Positions 1,696-63,158 of a stretch of DNA of 64,000 bases are shown piece after piece. The notes beneath the pieces are model-generated. The model ran no database searches, was not told where the DNA came from, and saw only the letters and a list, made by a program, of their open reading frames with translations. Source of the DNA: Rhizobiales bacterium 62-47 (GTDB lineage Bacteria; Pseudomonadota; Alphaproteobacteria; Rhizobiales; Xanthobacteraceae); the NCBI GenBank assembly GCA_001899255.1, contig MKVX01000018.1, positions 869,150-933,149 on the forward strand, read 5' to 3'. The first letter of the stretch is position 1. Each line of letters opens with the position of its first letter. A program made the translations under genes and the position numbers.

Positions 1696-2897
1696 GTTCC
1701 CAGGCTCCGGTTGATGCGCCAGCCGTAGAAGCTCATGATCGCGCTCGTCACCAGCGAAATCAGCAAATACACGCCCATGGTGATGGCAATGATTTCGATC
1801 GCTTGTCCGGTTTGACTGAGCGTCGTACCGGCAAAGACCGAGAACAGATCGGGATAGCCGATGGCAACCGCAAGCGACGAATTCTTTGTCAGATTGAGAT
1901 ACTGGTTGGTCAGCGGCGGCAGGATCACTCGCATCGCCTGAGGCACGACGATCAACCGCAACGTCGCACCGTGCGAGAGACCAAGCGACGCTCCCGCCTC
2001 CATCTGGCCCTTCTGCACGGACATGATGCCAGCCCGCACGTTCTCTGCGATGAAAGCAGCCGTATACGTCGACAAGGCCACCACCAACGCTACGAACTCA
2101 GGGACAATTCGCAACCCGCCGGAAAAATTGAAACCCTTGAGCTGTGGAATCTCAAATGTCACCGGCGCACCGGCGCTGAGCACCGCCAAGGCTGGTAGGC
2201 CGACAATCAGCGCGATGACATAGGGCCAGATGACAATGATCCGGCCGCGCTTGAACAGTTGGCGGCGCGCATAGATCCGCAACGCGATCGAGGCGATGAC
2301 CGCCACGGCAACTGCTGCCAGGAAGACTTGCAATCCGCCTTCGCCCAACGGCTTGGGAATTACCAGCCCGCGATTGCTCAGAAAGAATTTGTCGAACAGC
2401 GAGATGCTTTGGCGCGGTCCGGGCAACGCGCCGAGCACCGCCAGATACCAAAACAGGATCTGGAACAATAACGGCAGATTACGCACCGATTCGACATAAC
2501 CACCCGCAATCCGGGCGACCAGCCAATTCGGTGACAGCCTGCCTATCCCAACGATGAAACCAATGATCGTCGCGAAAATAATGCCGACGACGGCGACCAG
2601 CAGCGTGTTTAGCAAACCAACCAGGAAGACGCGGCTATAGGTGTCGGTTTCCGAATACGGAATCAGCGATTGGCTGACGCCGAACCCCGCGGTCTGCGAC
2701 AGAAAGCCGAATCCTGAGGCGATCCGCTGCGCCTGCAAATTGGCGCGCGCATTGGCGAAGATCTCATAGCCGACCCACGCCAGAGCCGCGACGAAAAGAA
2801 TTTGAAACGCAAAGCCTCCCCACCCGGCATGACCACCGAGGATTCCGCGAAGCCTGGCCCAGAATTGGGACGGTGGCTTGCGCGCCTCGGTCGCCAT
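1692..2897 (-). CDS. aapQ: General L-amino acid ABC transporter permease AapQ
   Basis: Second permease of the amino-acid importer, 401 residues from the ATG at 2897, which matches the usual AapQ length of about 400. A TTG at 2918 would add seven residues and overlap aapJ, but the ATG is preferred. It contains the EAA loop (NVRAGIMSVQKGQMEAGASLGL) near the C-terminus and a periplasmic/linker region between membrane segments, as known for AapQ. It is flanked by aapJ (upstream) and aapM (4-nt overlap downstream). Confidence 0.94.
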   Translation of the reverse strand: MATEARKPPSQFWARLRGILGGHAGWGGFAFQILFVAALAWVGYEIFANARANLQAQRIASGFGFLSQTAGFGVSQSLIPYSETDTYSRVFLVGLLNTLLVAVVGIIFATIIGFIVGIGRLSPNWLVARIAGGYVESVRNLPLLFQILFWYLAVLGALPGPRQSISLFDKFFLSNRGLVIPKPLGEGGLQVFLAAVAVAVIASIALRIYARRQLFKRGRIIVIWPYVIALIVGLPALAVLSAGAPVTFEIPQLKGFNFSGGLRIVPEFVALVVALSTYTAAFIAENVRAGIMSVQKGQMEAGASLGLSHGATLRLIVVPQAMRVILPPLTNQYLNLTKNSSLAVAIGYPDLFSVFAGTTLSQTGQAIEIIAITMGVYLLISLVTSAIMSFYGWRINRSLGT

Positions 2898-2914
2898 CGG
2901 CGTGCCACGCAAGG

Positions 2915-3931
2915 TCAACGGATCGGCGGCGCGTACTGGATTCCACCCTTATTCCAAAGCTGATTAAGGCCGCGAGCGATACCCAGCTTGGAGCCGGCGC
3001 CGACATTGCGGTCAAACGACTCGCCATAATTGCCAACAGCACGGACAATACGGCTCACCCAATCCTTGGTCAGCCCGAGTTGCTCGCCGAGATTTCCATC
3101 CGTACCGAACACGCGCTTCAACTCTGGTTTGGTTGACTTGGCCATCTCGTCAACATTCTTCTGCGTTACGCCAAGTTCCTCGGCGTTGATCATGGCGAAC
3201 AGGGTCCATTTGACGATATCGAACCATTGATCGTCGCCGTGCCGGACCAGCGGTCCGAGCGGTTCCTTGGAAATCACTTCTGGGAGCACCGCATGATCTG
3301 CCGGATTGGCGAGTTTCAGCCGTTCAGCATAAAGCTGGGAAATGTCCGACGTAAAGACGTCGCAGCGTCCGGATTCATAAGCCTTCACGGTTTCGTCGGC
3401 AGTCCCGAATGCGATGACCTCATACTTCATATTGTTGCCTTTGAAGTAATCGGCAACGTTCTGTTCATTCGTCGTGCCGGTCTGCACGCAGATCGACGCG
3501 CTGTTCAACTCCAGTGCGGAATTGACCTTGAGCGCCTTCTTCACGAGAAATCCCTGACCGTCGTAATAGGTAACGCCGGTAAAATTCACTCCCAAGGAGG
3601 TATCGCGCGACACCGTCCAGGTCGTGTTCCGCGACAACACATCGATCTCGCCAGACTGCAGGGCCGTGAAGCGGTCTTTTGCCGAGAGCGGAACGAACTT
3701 TACTTTGGCGGGATCGTTCAACACCGCAGCCGCAATGGCACGACAAACGTCGACATCAAGCCCGGTCCAGTTGCCCTTGTCGTCCGGCGAAGAAAAGCCG
3801 GGCAAACCCTGACTGACGCCGCAGGACAGAACGCCCCGGTCCCTAACGGTTTTTAACGTCTGGGCAAACCCAGCCTGACAGGAAAGGCCGACCGCGAGAG
3901 CAGCAATGAGACCAACAGAAATACGTTTCAT
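2915..3931 (-). CDS. aapJ: General L-amino acid ABC transporter substrate-binding protein AapJ
   Basis: Periplasmic solute-binding protein (SBP family 3), 338 residues. The start at 3931 is chosen because it begins directly with a Sec signal peptide (MKRISVGLIAALAVGLS...) ending in a likely FAQ cleavage site; an upstream start would bury the signal. The mature protein starts TLKTVRDRG, typical of AapJ, and keeps the acidic and aromatic residues of the binding cleft. It is the first gene of the operon, and the promoter must lie in the 307-nt divergent gap before metC. Confidence 0.95.
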   Translation of the reverse strand: MKRISVGLIAALAVGLSCQAGFAQTLKTVRDRGVLSCGVSQGLPGFSSPDDKGNWTGLDVDVCRAIAAAVLNDPAKVKFVPLSAKDRFTALQSGEIDVLSRNTTWTVSRDTSLGVNFTGVTYYDGQGFLVKKALKVNSALELNSASICVQTGTTNEQNVADYFKGNNMKYEVIAFGTADETVKAYESGRCDVFTSDISQLYAERLKLANPADHAVLPEVISKEPLGPLVRHGDDQWFDIVKWTLFAMINAEELGVTQKNVDEMAKSTKPELKRVFGTDGNLGEQLGLTKDWVSRIVRAVGNYGESFDRNVGAGSKLGIARGLNQLWNKGGIQYAPPIR

Positions 3932-4238
3932 GGTATGGCCTTTCCAACAACACCAAGTGAGCTTGCCGCAGGTCGGTTCAATCAATCGCCCCTGCCCTGC
4001 CATCACGACCATTCTCGAAATTAGCCGGCGAGTCTATCCGTCTGCGAACCAATCGCCACGCTGTCCATAAGTTCATTGCAAGGTATCACAGAACGACTAT
4101 GAAGCTGGGTCAAGGGGTTGACGTCCATCCCGACTGTCCTCTTATTAGCCCGAGCCTTACCCGAAGGTGCCAGATCGGCAGGATTTGGGCATTTGGCAAC
4201 CAGCCGCGGCAAAACGTCATCAGGTCCACATCACGCGC
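3932..4238. other. Divergent intergenic region aapJ / metC
   Basis: 307 nt between two divergently transcribed genes, so it must hold promoters for both aapJQMP and metC. I looked for a SAM riboswitch-like fold and for a sigma-54 promoter (TGGCAC-N5-TTGC) and saw neither. The short open frames here have no recognisable product. Confidence 0.6.
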
Positions 4239-5423
4239 ATGAAACCTTCCAATCAATCGGCCCCCTTCGGCACCGAAACCTCTTTGGTCACTTCAGGGCG
4301 CGACACCGCGGCGCAGAAGGGCTTCGTCAACCCTCCGGTTGTCCGTGGCTCGACCGTGCTGTACCCGACCGCCGAAGATTTGCACGAGCATCGCGGCGAG
4401 TATCAATACGGCCGTCACGGTACGCCGACGACGAAGGCCCTGCAGCAGGCTCTGCAGGCGCTGGAAGGCCCAAAGTGCGCGGGCGTCGGGCTTGCTCCTT
4501 CTGGCCTTGCTGCCATCACCACGGCTCTGCTGGCGGTTCTCAAATCCGGCGATCATCTGCTGGTTTGCGACAATGCCTACCGGCCGACGCGTAATTTCTG
4601 CAATGGCCTGCTGGCGCGATACGGCGTCGAGACGACCTATTTCGATCCGCTGATCGGCGCGGGGATTGCGGCACACTTCAAGCCCAATACCAGAGCAATA
4701 TTGGTCGAGGCGCCGGGGTCGCAGTCTTTCGAATTGCCGGACATCCCCGCGATTGCCAAAGTCGCGCACGAACGCGGAGCGATCGTTCTGGACGACAACA
4801 CCTGGGCAACGCCACTCTATCATCGCTCGCTTGAGCAAGGCGTCGATATCAGCATCCAGGCGGCAACCAAGTATATCGGCGGCCATTCGGACATCATGTT
4901 CGGAACCATTTCTGCAAACGCGGAGGCATGGCCACTGCTGACGGAAGGCATTCGGCTGCTAGGAGTCTGCGCCGGTCCGGACGACGTATTCCTTGCCCTT
5001 CGTGGTGTTCGCACGCTGGCGGTGCGCCTGGCGCATCACCAGCGTTCGGCGCTCGAAATGGCGCGCTGGCTGGCGACGCGGCCGGAGGTCGTTAACGTCT
5101 TGCATCCGGGACTGGAGAGCCATCCCGGTCATGCGATCTGGAAACGCGACTTCACCGGTGCGTCAGGTCTGTTCAGCATCGTCTTGAAGCCCGCACCACA
5201 GAAAGCCGTCGACGCACTGCTCAACACGGTTCGGCTCTTCGGCATGGGCTATTCCTGGGGCGGCTTTGAAAGCCTCGTGATTCCGTTCGATTGCAGTTCA
5301 TACCGAACGGCGACGGCCTGGTCGCCCGGTGGTCCGACGTTGCGCCTGCATATCGGTCTGGAAAATGTTGAAGACCTGAAAGCGGATTTGTCGCGCGGCT
5401 TCGATGCGTTCAATGCAGCATAG
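4239..5423 (+). CDS. metC: Cystathionine beta-lyase (Cys/Met metabolism PLP enzyme)
   Basis: 394 residues from the ATG at 4239. The protein is a Cys/Met-metabolism PLP-dependent enzyme: the cofactor lysine is K211 in AATKYIGGHSD, and the N-terminal QKGFVNPPVVRGSTVLYPT and YQYGRHGTPTTKAL segments match alphaproteobacterial MetC. It would cleave cystathionine to homocysteine, pyruvate and ammonia in methionine synthesis. An upstream in-frame start at 4167 would add 24 non-conserved residues and is not preferred. A strong hairpin follows the stop. Some enzymes of this fold act as gamma-lyases, so beta-lyase specificity is inferred from overall resemblance. Confidence 0.9.
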   Translation: MKPSNQSAPFGTETSLVTSGRDTAAQKGFVNPPVVRGSTVLYPTAEDLHEHRGEYQYGRHGTPTTKALQQALQALEGPKCAGVGLAPSGLAAITTALLAVLKSGDHLLVCDNAYRPTRNFCNGLLARYGVETTYFDPLIGAGIAAHFKPNTRAILVEAPGSQSFELPDIPAIAKVAHERGAIVLDDNTWATPLYHRSLEQGVDISIQAATKYIGGHSDIMFGTISANAEAWPLLTEGIRLLGVCAGPDDVFLALRGVRTLAVRLAHHQRSALEMARWLATRPEVVNVLHPGLESHPGHAIWKRDFTGASGLFSIVLKPAPQKAVDALLNTVRLFGMGYSWGGFESLVIPFDCSSYRTATAWSPGGPTLRLHIGLENVEDLKADLSRGFDAFNAA

Positions 5424-57579: not shown

Positions 57580-57803
57580 GGGCTGGCTCCTGCTCGATGA
57601 GGAAACCGCCGGAAGGATCGCGCTGTCTTGCTGAGAGTGCCGCGGGACCGTATCCGGCGGCAGGGGTGAACGATCTTAAACGCGAGCGTCCGCCCATACC
57701 GCGAAGGTACGGCGACGGCGGGCGGCAATGATGGTCGCGGCTTTGATCATGGGCGCGGCTATACGGCCGCACCCACCCGACGTCAAGGACGTTGTTCGAT
57801 GAC

Positions 57804-58565
57804 CTAGGGCGCGGACTCATTAGCGCGCAGCCAAATTCGGATTGATGCGAGTTCGACGAACGCCAGATAGTTAGCCGCAAATTTGTCGTATCGAGTCGCG
57901 ACACGCCGACACTGCTTGATCTTGTTGAAGAAGCGCTCGACCAGATTGCGCGCGCGATACAGATACGGGCTGAAGCAGATCGGGTCTCTGCGATTTCGTT
58001 TCGGCGGAATGTTCGCCTATGCTCCCTGCTGGCGAGCAAGCTCCCTGATCCAGTCGGCGTCATAACCGCGATCCGCCAGCAACATCGTTTGGGGAAGCAA
58101 GGCGCTGAGGAGGACCGAACATAGCCGGTTGTCATGAGCCTCGCCGGGCGTAAGAGCGAGTTGGACCGGCAGTCCGTGGGTATCCGCCACCGCGTGAATC
58201 TTGCTGGTCAGGCCGCCTCGCGAGCGGCCCATGTCTTGATGGTTGTTGTCCGCGATACAGGCGCCGTGCTGGTGCACGCGCACGACAGATGTATCGATCA
58301 TCTGCACTGCCGCGTCGTGACCGGTAGCCAGCGCTTCCATGATCTGGCCCCAGATACCAGCCCGCCGCCAGCGGACGAAGCGGTTGTAGCAAGTGGTGTA
58401 TGGGCCAAACGCCGTCGGCAGATCGCGCCAGGGTGCTCCTGATCGGAGGACCCAGAAGATGCCATTCAGGACCCGTCTGTCGTTCACTCGAGGAACGCCA
58501 CGCGGTTTGTTCGGCAGCATCGGCTTGATGGCGGTCCATTCATGGTCGGCGAGTTCGTAGCCCAT
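57804..58565 (-). pseudogene. IS5-family transposase with in-frame amber stop
   Basis: A full-length IS5-type transposase frame (253 codons, MGYELADHEWTAIKPMLP to RANESAP) interrupted by TAG at 58019-58017. Conserved acidic residues are all encoded: D in MIDTSVVRVHQHG, D in LADRGYDADW, and E in LVERFFNKIKQ, but the amber lies between the second D and the E, so normal translation gives a 182-residue inactive product. The codon before the break reads ...RQQGA and after it ANIPPKRNRRDP, which continues the usual family sequence; TGG to TAG is the simplest change. Terminal inverted repeats could not be defined. Confidence 0.9.
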
Positions 58566-58849
58566 GACTCGCCCCCCAGTTCGGGAGTTTGAATCACGGC
58601 AGTCCGGCCAAACGCAACAGTTCTGGCCCGAGCCTTTTACGGCGCTTACGGACAGGAGCGGACATCACTAGCCCTCAATCTCTGCCAAAGCCGTCGAAAA
58701 TGACCCAAAGCGGGCATCTGGGCTGGTAGGGCAAATAGTAGCCGATAGCCGCCCCAGATTGATCTGTATCAAGAAGCGGTCCACTTAATCCGACCATTTT
58801 GACCGTTTTCTTGCCAAGACCAGCAGCTGCACTAAACGGGAGTGCCGCC
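58566..58849. other. Gap between the IS5 remnant and the arylsulfatase gene
   Basis: 284 nt. It probably contains the right end of the insertion sequence, then a piece (~58645-58720) that reads on the minus strand as GATGCCCGCTTTGGGTCATT, like a short repeat I recall as dispersed in Bradyrhizobium genomes. The FNR/FixK box and sulfatase promoter follow. Confidence 0.5.
58759..58772 (+). promoter_or_regulatory. FNR/FixK-type binding site upstream of the sulfatase gene
   Basis: TTGATCTGTATCAA matches the FNR consensus (TTGAT-N4-ATCAA) perfectly in both half-sites. If it acts at -41.5, the transcript would begin near 58807, leaving a 43-nt leader with a GGGAG ribosome site before the ATG at 58850. 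This supports control by an FNR/FixK-type regulator under low oxygen. Confidence 0.6.
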
Positions 58850-61357
58850 ATGAAAATGGTCTACAGCGTGATCGCGGGCGCAGGTCTTATCGTTCTTGGT
58901 TGTATCTCGGCATTGGCTCAGCAGGTCACAGGTGTCCCGGGTTCGCCCGCCGCCACGACCACCATCACGGGAGCGCAAATTCCGCCGCCTGATCCCAAGT
59001 TCGGTGGAGTAATCCAGGAGAAAGCCTCGGACTCGACAGCCTGGTGGGCGCCGCGGGTCGTACCGCCAAAGGGCGCCCCCAACGTGCTGCTCATCATGAC
59101 GGATGACCAGGGCTTCGGTGCACCAAGCACCTTCGGTGGCGTCATCCCTACGCCTGCAATGGATCGCATTGCGGCGCAGGGGCTGCGTTACACCAATTTC
59201 CATTCTACCTCGCTGTGCTCACCGACGCGGGCGGCACTCATCACCGGCCGCAATCATCATTCGGTGGGTTTCGGAGTGGTCGGCGAAATATCGACGGGAT
59301 TCCCAGGTTACGATTCGATCATTCCCATCGAGAAGGGCACCATCGGCACGATCCTGAAGGGGAATGGGTACGCTACCTCGTGGTTCGGCAAGGACCACAA
59401 CACACCCTCGTTCCAATCGAGCCAGGCAGGGCCATTCAATCAATGGCCCAACGGCATGGGCTTCGAGTACTTCTATGGCTTTGTTGGCGGCGACGCGAGC
59501 CAGTGGCAGCCGAACCTGTTCCGCAACACCACAGCCATCTATCCCTTCCAGGGCAATCCGAGCTGGAATCTGGAGACGGCGATGGCCGACGAAGCCATCC
59601 AGTACATGAAGCAGCTCAAGGAGATTGCGCCCGAAAAACCGTTCTTCATCTACTACGTGCCCGGCGCCACCCACGCGCCGCATCATCCGACCCCAGAGTG
59701 GATCAAGAAGATCGGCGACATGCACCTGTTTGATGACGGATGGAACAAGGTGCGCGAGAAGATTTTCGCCAACCAGAAGCGCCTGGGCATCATGCCCGAA
59801 AACGCCAAGCTGACGCCCTGGCCGAAAGAACTGCCGCAGTGGGATTCGCTCGGGGCGTTGGAGAAGAAGCTGTTCATCAGGCAAGCCGACGTCTATGGCG
59901 CTTACCTTGCTTACGCTGACAACGAGATCGGTCGAGTCATCCAGGCGGTCGAAGACCTCGGCGAGCTCAACAACACCCTGATCATCTATATCGGCGGCGA
60001 CAACGGTGCGAGCGCCGAAGGCATGATCAACGGTACACCCAACGAGTTCACCACCTTCAACGGCGTCCCGGTTCCGGTGAAGGCCCAGTACCTCTGGTAC
60101 CCGTTTTGGGGTTCGGACAAGACATTCCCACACTATGCGGCAGAATGGGCGTGGGCGATGGACACCCCGTTCAAATGGGTGAAGCAGGTGCCGTCGCATT
60201 TCGGCGGGACCGCCCAGGGCATGGTCATGTCGTGGCCGGGCCATATCAACGACATGGGCAGTATCCGCCGGCAGTTCCATCACGTCATCGACATCGCTCC
60301 GACCATCCTGGAGGCGACGGGCATTTCGCAACCCGATGCGATCGACGGCATCAAGCAGAGTCCCATGGAAGGCGTGGGCATGGCCTACACATGGGACAAG
60401 GCGAATGCCAATGCCCCGACGAAACACACGACCCAATATTTCGAGATGCTCGGCAATCGCGCGATTTATCAGGACGGATGGGTGGCTGCCACGACGCCAG
60501 CGACGCTTCCCTGGGAGTTGAGCAGCGCTCCGCCGCCGGACGTGATCACCGGTTACAAATGGGAGCTTTATAACGTTGACCAGGATCCAACCCAGTTCGA
60601 CGATCTGGCCGCCAAGATGCCGGACAAGCTCAAGCAGCTGCAGGATGTCTTCTATTCGGAGGCCGCCAAATACAACGTGCTGCCGCTCGACAACTCGTCG
60701 CTCGCGCGCTGGAATACGCCGCGCCCGAGCCTGACTGCCGGGCAAACGGTGTTTACCTATTCGGGCGAGCTGTCCGGAGTGCCGGCCAGCGCTGCGCCGA
60801 GTATCCTCAACAAGTCCTACACCATCACGGCCGAAGTCGAGATTCCCAAGGGTGGTGCGGAAGGCATGATCGTCACCGAAGGTGGGCGCTTCGGCGGCTA
60901 TGGCCTGTTTCTGAGCAAGGGCGTGGCGGGCATTCGCGGGGGCAAACCCGTGTTCCTCTATAACCTGCTCAACCTCAAGCGCACGATCTGGTCGGGGCCG
61001 GAGTTGGGCGCCGGCAAGCACACCGTCGCCTTCGACTTCAAGTCCGACGGACCGGAATTGGGCAAGGGGGGCACGGGCGTGCTCTCGGTCGATGGCAAGG
61101 AAGTGGCCCGGAAATCCATCGAACACGGCACGCCGATCACGTTCCCGGAGGACGAGACCTTCGACGTTGGCCTGGACACCCGTAGCGGGGTGGCGATGCT
61201 GGAGTATCGCTACGATCCTCCGTTCAAGTTCACCGGCAAGATCAACAAGCTGACGTTCAAGCTCGGGCCGGAGTCCAAGCCAGCACCCGAGGCCAAGGCA
61301 GAACTCGGACCTATGCCAGCGCCGGAGCCGGACCCCATCGAGGCGCCGAAGCGGTAA
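58850..61357 (+). CDS. Exported arylsulfatase (formylglycine-dependent)
   Basis: 835 residues from the ATG at 58850, with GGGAG upstream and a Sec signal peptide (MKMVYSVIAGAGLIVLGCIS..., cleaved near ALA). The sulfatase core has metal-binding D85-D86 in LLIMTDDQG and the C-x-P-x-R signature C123-SPTR within TSLCSPTRAALITGRNHHS; C123 is the site converted to formylglycine. A C-terminal beta-rich extension (~640-800) and an Ala/Pro/Glu tail follow. It would hydrolyse sulfate esters in the periplasm. A 97-residue secreted protein and a membrane protein follow on the same strand. A start at 58799 is possible but would precede the signal. Confidence 0.92.
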   Translation: MKMVYSVIAGAGLIVLGCISALAQQVTGVPGSPAATTTITGAQIPPPDPKFGGVIQEKASDSTAWWAPRVVPPKGAPNVLLIMTDDQGFGAPSTFGGVIPTPAMDRIAAQGLRYTNFHSTSLCSPTRAALITGRNHHSVGFGVVGEISTGFPGYDSIIPIEKGTIGTILKGNGYATSWFGKDHNTPSFQSSQAGPFNQWPNGMGFEYFYGFVGGDASQWQPNLFRNTTAIYPFQGNPSWNLETAMADEAIQYMKQLKEIAPEKPFFIYYVPGATHAPHHPTPEWIKKIGDMHLFDDGWNKVREKIFANQKRLGIMPENAKLTPWPKELPQWDSLGALEKKLFIRQADVYGAYLAYADNEIGRVIQAVEDLGELNNTLIIYIGGDNGASAEGMINGTPNEFTTFNGVPVPVKAQYLWYPFWGSDKTFPHYAAEWAWAMDTPFKWVKQVPSHFGGTAQGMVMSWPGHINDMGSIRRQFHHVIDIAPTILEATGISQPDAIDGIKQSPMEGVGMAYTWDKANANAPTKHTTQYFEMLGNRAIYQDGWVAATTPATLPWELSSAPPPDVITGYKWELYNVDQDPTQFDDLAAKMPDKLKQLQDVFYSEAAKYNVLPLDNSSLARWNTPRPSLTAGQTVFTYSGELSGVPASAAPSILNKSYTITAEVEIPKGGAEGMIVTEGGRFGGYGLFLSKGVAGIRGGKPVFLYNLLNLKRTIWSGPELGAGKHTVAFDFKSDGPELGKGGTGVLSVDGKEVARKSIEHGTPITFPEDETFDVGLDTRSGVAMLEYRYDPPFKFTGKINKLTFKLGPESKPAPEAKAELGPMPAPEPDPIEAPKR

Positions 61358-61367
61358 AGGGATCACC

Positions 61368-61661
61368 ATGATGTACAAAACGCCTGGAGCAATTTTGCTG
61401 GCTGCCCTTGCCGCTGCTTTCGGCACATCAGGGCGGGCGCAACCGTCAATGGCAACGCTGGTTGCCGCCGAAACGACGTCGGAGATGCTGGCGGTGCAGA
61501 TTCGCTTGCAGGGTTTCACCTGCGACAAGCCGCATGGTGTGGTGAGGGACGCCAAACGCTCGCGGCCGGACCTTGGCGTCTGGGTCCTCAAATGCGGCAA
61601 CGCGACGTACCGGATCAGGCGTGCTCCCGATATGGCGGCGAAGGTCGAGCCGCTGCCGTGA
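61368..61661 (+). CDS. Small secreted protein downstream of the sulfatase
   Basis: 97 residues beginning 10 nt after the sulfatase stop, with AAAGGGA ahead of the ATG. A signal peptide (MMYKTPGAILLAALAAAFG) is followed by a compact domain with two cysteines: LQGFTCDKPHGVVRDAKRSR...WVLKCGNATYRIRRAPDMAAKVEPL. I do not recognise the family. Co-directional spacing suggests the same operon, and the two cysteines suggest a periplasmic disulfide. Confidence 0.75.
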   Translation: MMYKTPGAILLAALAAAFGTSGRAQPSMATLVAAETTSEMLAVQIRLQGFTCDKPHGVVRDAKRSRPDLGVWVLKCGNATYRIRRAPDMAAKVEPLP

Positions 61662-61707: not shown

Positions 61708-62055
61708 ATGAAGAATGCGCTGACTTTTGCCGCTGTCGCCGAAGCCGCTACGGGATTGGGGTTACTGATCGTTCCGTCGCTGGTTGTGCAGTTGCTGCTG
61801 GGCGAGCAGCTTACTGGCGTCGGAATACCGGTCGCCCGTGTTACCGGCATTGCCCTGATTGGGTTAGGGATCGCCTGCTGGCCAGGTCCGGCGCTAGTTG
61901 GGATGTTGACTTACAGCGGAGCAGCCACACTGTATTTGGCTTACCTCGGCTTTGCGGGAGGTTTGGCCGGTGTCTTACTGTGGCCAGCGGTCGCCCTCCA
62001 CTTTTTCCTCACTGCTCTTTTGATCGGCGGCATCCCGCGAACCCTACGCGAATAG
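61708..62055 (+). CDS. Small four-helix membrane protein
   Basis: 115 residues from the ATG at 61708. Four hydrophobic segments (ALTFAAVAEAATGLGLLIVP, GIPVARVTGIALIGLGIACW, YSGAATLYLAYLGFAGGL, VALHFFLTALLIGGIPR) with little loop sequence. The family is unknown to me. It lies 46 nt after the 97-residue gene and completes the three-gene cassette. An earlier in-frame start at 61573 overlaps the neighbour and is arginine-rich, so it is rejected. Confidence 0.75.
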   Translation: MKNALTFAAVAEAATGLGLLIVPSLVVQLLLGEQLTGVGIPVARVTGIALIGLGIACWPGPALVGMLTYSGAATLYLAYLGFAGGLAGVLLWPAVALHFFLTALLIGGIPRTLRE

Positions 62056-62171: not shown

Positions 62172-63158
62172 CTAGATCGAGGGATTCCACGCCACCGGCA
62201 CGACGCGGTAGCCGGAGCCATCCTTTTCGATGTTTCCGACACCCGGGAACGGATAGTGATAGCCCTGCACTTTCAGCCGTTCCGCGACCAGCATGTCGTA
62301 GACCTTCCGGCGCGTCGCCTCTGCAACGTCCGGAATTTGATCGTAACTGACATGCCAACCCGGATTGCGCACAAACAGGTCCGGCGTATTGGTAACGTCC
62401 GACTGTATAAAGACCTTGTCGTTGCCGGATGACAGCACGAACGACGTATGTCCTGGGGTATGGCCGATCGTTTCCACCGCCAGCAGGCCGGGAGCAACGT
62501 CCTTACCCCACTGATACGGAGTCACCTTGCGGCCGAGCGCATCGAAGACGCGGCGATTCTCCTTGAAGACCGCCTGCATGCGGCCAGCGGGCGCGCGGCT
62601 CATCTCGCCGTCATCCATGAAGAACTTCCATTCGACTTCCGGCACCAGAATCTCGGCATTCGGGAAAGCCGGCTTGTTGTCGGCGGTGAGAAGTCCACCA
62701 ACATGGTCGCCGTGGAAGTGCGAGATCACCACCATATCGATCTTGCTGAGATCTACACCGGCGGCAGCACTGTTCGCACCAAACTGACCCACGGCTCCCT
62801 TGGATTTGGTGAAGGCAGCCGCGCCACTCCCTGTATCGATCAGAACGGTCTTCCCGCCAGTGTTCAGAACCAGCGGACCGAAGGGGATCGTCAATTGGTC
62901 CTTGGGGCGAAAGGCTTTATCGAGCGCCGCATTAACCTGATCCCTGTTGGCGTTCAGCACGAAATTATCGGCGAGCGGGAACGTCGCCGCACCGTCGGAG
63001 ACCACCGTGACCAGAATGTCCCCGACCTTGTAGCGATAATAGCTGGCGACTTGATGCTGCGGTGCTACCGCGTCCGCACTTGCATGATTGGATTGAAAGA
63101 GCGGTAACGCAGCCGTCATGGCGGCGCCAGCAAGCGCCTGTCGTCGTGACAATTCCAT
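62172..63158 (-). CDS. Exported MBL-fold metallo-hydrolase
   Basis: 328 residues from the ATG at 63158, with a twin-arginine-like signal (MELSRRQALAGAAMTAALPL). The metallo-beta-lactamase motif HxHxDH is at H147-H152 (VISHFHGDHVGG), followed by IGHTPGHTSFVLSSG and a C-terminal GYHYPFPGVGNIEKDG. It is a periplasmic metal-dependent hydrolase; lactonase-, quorum-quenching- and thiol-dioxygenase-type proteins share this fold, so the substrate is open. A start at 63182 adds eight residues. Confidence 0.9.
   Translation of the reverse strand: MELSRRQALAGAAMTAALPLFQSNHASADAVAPQHQVASYYRYKVGDILVTVVSDGAATFPLADNFVLNANRDQVNAALDKAFRPKDQLTIPFGPLVLNTGGKTVLIDTGSGAAAFTKSKGAVGQFGANSAAAGVDLSKIDMVVISHFHGDHVGGLLTADNKPAFPNAEILVPEVEWKFFMDDGEMSRAPAGRMQAVFKENRRVFDALGRKVTPYQWGKDVAPGLLAVETIGHTPGHTSFVLSSGNDKVFIQSDVTNTPDLFVRNPGWHVSYDQIPDVAEATRRKVYDMLVAERLKVQGYHYPFPGVGNIEKDGSGYRVVPVAWNPSI

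Follow-up and report, generated by a model that had tools for sequence, protein, structure and literature searches.

The closest described systems are the FixLJ-FixK2 regulon of B. diazoefficiens, which has the same operator consensus, start spacing (40.5) and sensor cascade as the locus studied here (PMC6710368, PMC5582078) together with the same typical neighbours, hemN and CBS-domain genes (PMC6710368, PMC6515984), and the FnrL/FNR regulons of other Alphaproteobacteria, whose operator is nearly the same (PMC2908626, PMC4999443). The FixK2 consensus of B. diazoefficiens is TTGA/C-N6-T/GCAA (PMC6710368), and at the nosR promoter of this species a distance of 40.5 bp separates the FixK2 start site from the box axis (PMC5582078). 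Oxygen sensing by FNR depends on an Fe-S cluster that is held by cysteines. Sulfatases are normally discussed as sulfur-starvation genes, whereas the sulfatase described here sits behind a low-oxygen operator. Among the targets named in the main texts of the FixK2 and NnrR literature that we searched, we found no sulfatase, and a search for sulfatases together with FixK/FNR gave nothing relevant. As far as the literature searched shows, the sulfatase would add a target of a new kind to a regulon that is otherwise well known, and an earlier listing is possible, for example in the 2008 FixK2 target list of Mesa et al.

The locus lies in a 64-kb window, by which we mean the whole stretch of DNA that was analyzed, and consists of one sulfatase operon that adjoins an IS5-family transposase remnant and has a convergent MBL-fold gene downstream. 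Its features are:

58017–58565, minus strand: IS5-family transposase frame of 182 aa, outside the operon (NF033580, 206.6 bits)
58759–58772, plus strand: FixK/FNR-type operator TTGATCTGTATCAA, a perfect TTGAT-N4-ATCAA dyad kept at orthologous loci
58795–58800, plus strand: predicted -10-like hexamer CATTTT, starting 23 nt after the box (YANNNT phasing)
58807, plus strand: predicted transcription start, from geometry if the box centre is at -41.5
58838–58842, plus strand: ribosome-binding site GGGAG, 7 nt 5' of the ATG (from sequence)
58850–61357, plus strand: secreted or periplasmic Cys-type sulfatase of 835 aa with a signal peptide and the motif C123-S-P-T-R (PF00884, 3.2e-53)
61368–61661, plus strand: 97-aa protein that begins with a signal-like stretch, a partner that is rarely kept (homologues at 4 of 109 other loci)
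61708–62055, plus strand: 115-aa four-helix membrane protein (AlphaFold2), a conserved operon partner (homologue at 73 of 110 loci)

The initial annotation had described an exact match to the FNR-type consensus, a start site 41.5 nt past the box that leaves a 43-nt leader, and a good ribosome site for the sulfatase. The match is perfect for the operator forms of a FixK-type regulon (TTGA-N6-TCAA and TTGAT-N4-ATCAA), the arithmetic of the leader agrees with a predicted start at 58807, and GGGAG was found where a ribosome site would be expected. The centre of TTGATCTGTATCAA lies 84.5 nt upstream of the ATG at 58850. In a pattern scan, no exact TTGAT-N4-ATCAA other than TTGATCTGTATCAA was present in the window; five sites were found when up to one mismatch was allowed (1.33 expected), a number that none of 100 shuffles reached. 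Across the whole genome (4,916,030 bases in 23 contigs), we found 26 exact TTGAT-N4-ATCAA sites and none for the control pattern read backward.

Alignment of the box in related genomes had been proposed as a check, and it turned out in favour of the box, which is conserved before Bradyrhizobium and Nitrobacter orthologues of the sulfatase. We compared 110 sulfatase loci, including that of the window, which were drawn from 300 same-family genomes and from a collection of genome contigs. A strict TTGAY-N4-RTCAA was present 50–150 nt upstream of the start in 21 of these 110 loci, whereas 0.18 would be expected on the basis of their remaining sequence, a calculation that takes no account of relatedness. 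When the 20 possible rearrangements of the half-site were compared, the exact TTGAT dyad occurred at 50–150 nt in 7 loci, and any other arrangement in at most one. The site is kept upstream of orthologues but in a patchy manner: within the Bradyrhizobium/Nitrobacter branch a box lies within 150 nt in about half of the tree rows (12/22), and it is missing from the majority of orthologues in Rhizobium, Ensifer and non-alphaproteobacteria. Gain and loss of the box are frequent, since its presence is scattered over the tree with 13 changes. At other loci of this branch the box stands before an upstream gene of the cluster, such as a tandem sulfatase (L074 and L131), and in L066 three neighbouring sulfatases each have their own. 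As a separate observation, the boxed sulfatase of Bradyrhizobium often adjoins a large multihaem cytochrome c/TPR protein (L068, positions 1898–4327, L070, L111 and others), and genes for DUF1254/DUF1214 and DUF2721 proteins are often neighbours at the same loci.

In most orthologues, the distance from the box to the start is 61.5, 74.5, 79.5, 84.5, 92.5 or 97.5 nt, and because this distance is variable, the motif is preserved while its surroundings change. The -10-like element holds its place 22 or 23 nt past the box although the box-to-start distance differs between orthologues. Specifically, we observed a YANNNT hexamer at this offset in 13 of 25 distinct box-bearing promoters, a value that the best offset pair equalled in none of 2000 shuffles. 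Such phasing points to a class II geometry with the box centre at -40.5 or -41.5, the operator position and phased -10 element expected of a FixK regulon. Both values are plausible, because FixK2 start sites lie at 40.5 in B. diazoefficiens.

The association recurs within the genome itself, where all three of the best-matching sulfatase units have a box. The second sulfatase (C5:132024–134510, 58% identity) carries TTGATCTGAGTCAA roughly 81 nt 5' of its ATG, and the third (C18:362962–365343, 46% identity) has TTGACCTGCATCAA about 440 nt upstream, directly before a gene for a small secreted protein (about 80 aa) that precedes the sulfatase. Behind TTGACCTGCATCAA, CATTTT recurs with the spacing that it has in the window, and the arrangement of a box and a small secreted-protein gene recurs at three further loci (L196, L199 and L201). 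The box region of the third unit is found on the reverse complement of L161 at 1716–2160 (G000:C18, about 365.3–365.8 kb). Among same-family sulfatases, a strict box was present in the fetched stretch for 9 of 20 at 53–66% identity (including one fragment at 88%), for 7 of 20 at 40–49%, and for 0 of 20 at 35–37%; the difference between the first and the last of these groups has a Fisher p of about 0.0006, a figure that ignores relatedness.

The genome also encodes a regulatory cascade suited to such a box. Many of its exact sites cluster in two islands (C13:415–443 kb and C20:91–123 kb), and a search of the C20 island with the relaxed pattern TTGAY-N4-RTCAA gave a dozen sites within less than 40 kb, next to genes for HemN (426 bits, cut-off 325), PHA synthase, CBS/BON proteins, universal-stress proteins and MlaE. 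The middle of this island encodes a receiver protein together with FixL (NF041777, 918 bits, cut-off 850) and FixJ (NF006900, 328 bits, cut-off 255); directly after fixLJ comes a FixK-like Crp/Fnr protein, and a second FixK-like protein is located in the C13 island. Thus, the cognate FixL and FixJ are present above their cut-offs and two FixK-like proteins below theirs: FixK is the best match of both, at 237.6 and 213.9 bits against an NCBIfam cut-off of 300, and because both score under it, the name rests on best match and context. Both proteins (L016 and L018) carry the recognition helix E-T-V-S-R, which is the helix expected for a TTGAT box, and each has a single cysteine in its open frame; because they share this helix and neither has an N-terminal cysteine cluster, we call them FixK-like and not FNR-like. 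Among the other Crp/Fnr frames inspected by eye, no FNR-type cysteine cluster was found either. The site had initially been called an FNR/FixK box, of which the FixK part stands, whereas the FNR part finds no cysteine cluster to match in the regulators inspected. In total, a dozen proteins of the genome match Crp/Fnr-type models above the Pfam cut-off. A separate case is the region upstream of ccoN (L166, positions 3186 and 3270; G000:C2), which contains TTGCGACAGATCAA and TTGCGCAAACGCAA and no perfect TTGAT dyad, suggesting that a different Crp/Fnr regulator may act there.

We propose that TTGATCTGTATCAA is a FixK-type operator through which a FixL-FixJ-FixK-like cascade activates the sulfatase operon at low oxygen from a class II position, a reading that we consider highly likely. 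Under low oxygen, the haem sensor FixL would phosphorylate FixJ, and FixJ would in turn induce a FixK-like Crp/Fnr activator. This activator would bind TTGATCTGTATCAA as a class II site centred at about -41.5 and bring in RNA polymerase at the -10 element (58795–58800), and the sulfatase gene, the 97-aa gene and the gene of the 115-aa membrane protein would be transcribed as a single operon. Computation shows the box with its conservation and phasing, the genes of the cascade and the recurrent pairing with sulfatases; binding, activation, the start site, transcription as an operon and the way in which oxygen acts are inferred. The box is real and conserved, and it is very probably functional. 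It very probably belongs to the sulfatase operon, as part of a wider association between FixK sites and a sulfatase clade in Bradyrhizobium and Nitrobacter relatives. The suggestion of oxygen-linked control in the initial annotation gains support at the sequence level from the boxes of the orthologues, the class II phasing, the two other boxed units, the lack of a box at the 20 distant sulfatases, and the presence of the FixL-FixJ-FixK-like cascade.

Three other explanations were weighed, which rank in the order of another Crp/Fnr regulator, repression and chance. It is rather unlikely, in our view, that the box is used by another Crp/Fnr protein, such as a stress regulator or a NO sensor of the NnrR or DNR type, in which case the signal would be NO or something else. 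Two of the dozen Crp/Fnr-type matches do carry what we read as an NnrR-like helix (T-L-H-[TS]-[VA]-S-R), and in B. diazoefficiens the targets of NnrR and FixK2 have similar boxes (PMC6710368). However, TTGCG half-sites are frequent among the known NnrR-dependent boxes (PMC6710368), and it is the regulators with the E-T-V-S-R helix that lie inside the box-rich islands, one of them immediately behind fixLJ.

That the box represses, for example by blocking an upstream promoter, so that the sulfatase would be made under oxic conditions, seems highly unlikely: with respect to the phased -10-like element, the box is placed as for a class II activator, and FixK2 is chiefly an activator, even though repressed targets exist for FnrL (the coxI and coxII operons in an R. 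sphaeroides table; PMC2908626). Of the 26 exact sites in the genome, several fall within coding sequence and probably arose by chance, and the TTGAT-N4-ATCAA upstream of the sulfatase could have done the same. For this dyad, chance is nevertheless an extremely unlikely explanation, as it is contradicted by a rate upstream of orthologues about 100-fold above background, by the phased -10-like element, and by the boxes at the paralogues in the same genome.

The PF00884 domain of the window sulfatase and its C-x-P/S-x-R maturation motif are those of a formylglycine (type I) sulfatase. Among solved structures it is closest to arylsulfatases (7all, 4cxk and 1hdh), with a match to the Pseudomonas arylsulfatase of 1e-48. 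It shares the PF00884 fold, C-x-P-T-R, DD, DNG and K-x-H with S1 formylglycine sulfatases and with the Pseudomonas arylsulfatase (PDB 1hdh/4cxk), and is about 300 residues longer than the Pseudomonas enzyme (835 vs 536 aa). In the alignment, the metal and catalytic positions of the Pseudomonas arylsulfatase (DD, K-x-H, H, DNG and a late K) are matched by identical residues. The 835-aa protein scored below every NCBIfam sulfatase equivalog cut-off (far below those for arylsulfatases); it is a member of the PF00884 family, and specificity for aryl sulfates is putative.

The 97-aa and 115-aa genes lie downstream of the sulfatase in the same direction, and neither protein matched a Pfam, NCBIfam or PHROGs family. 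The description of both as unknown partner genes holds for the 97-aa protein, which is rarely kept, and needs revision for the 115-aa protein, which is widely conserved beside the sulfatase. Homologues of the latter usually lie directly 3' of the sulfatase and span Proteobacteria, Verrucomicrobia, Cyanobacteria and Flavobacterium. AlphaFold2 predicted an all-helical protein with four main helices (pLDDT 94.6, confident), and a search of this fold against the PDB gave no match with E below 1. Near-invariant residues of the family include E12, R44, C57, W58, W92, P93 and H98.

The genes on either side of the operon were also considered. The convergent MBL-fold hydrolase at 62172–63158 has a secretion-like leader and is nearest to the AidB lactonase model, well under its cut-off (147 vs 360 bits). 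On the other side, the IS5 transposase frame covers about 190 of 258 profile positions (NF033580), and the transposase appears to be split over two frames between 57491 and 58565. No second full-length copy of the element was found in a DNA search of the genome, and no terminal inverted repeats within 57700–58800. The frame is missing at all other sulfatase loci compared. We rejected a role of the box in transposase expression, because the start of the transposase is about 200 nt off and the box is kept in transposase-free loci.

Cys-type sulfatases need a formylglycine, which is made by FGE, an oxygen-using enzyme, or by anSME. The genome encodes three PF03781 proteins (a cyclase-FGE fusion, a small SUMF1-like protein and an EgtB-like protein), none of which has the C-x4-C-x2-YR pair that is present in the canonical FGE of four relatives (G019, G139, G154 and G249), and no TIGR03942 match for anSME was found in the genome. 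The three sulfatases of this genome (G000; L163, L164 and L165) are thus all encoded without a canonical FGE or anSME, and another maturase is possible. We can imagine a Bradyrhizobium-type low-oxygen programme in which FixK directly controls several sulfatase operons that travel with their boxes, and in which maturation proceeds free of FGE and anSME, possibly aided by the 115-aa protein, but we regard this broader scenario as quite unlikely.

With regard to the history of the operon, the exact 14-mer TTGATCTGTATCAA was absent from 7 sampled same-genus genomes, which, at the threshold used, had no sulfatase match or only one at 35–36%. The nearest relatives of the window sulfatase are found in Nitrobacter vulgaris (90%) and Bradyrhizobium. 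Most simply, this would mean that the operon was acquired by transfer, box included, and came under the control of the cascade already present in the genome.

The link between FixK and sulfatases is directly testable in a model strain, and it also directs attention to the conserved 115-aa membrane partner and to the question of how sulfatases mature where a canonical FGE is missing. More generally, a conserved FixK operator before one sulfatase clade in Bradyrhizobium relatives suggests that these enzymes serve low-oxygen life, possibly in waterlogged soil or, in symbiotic species, in nodules.
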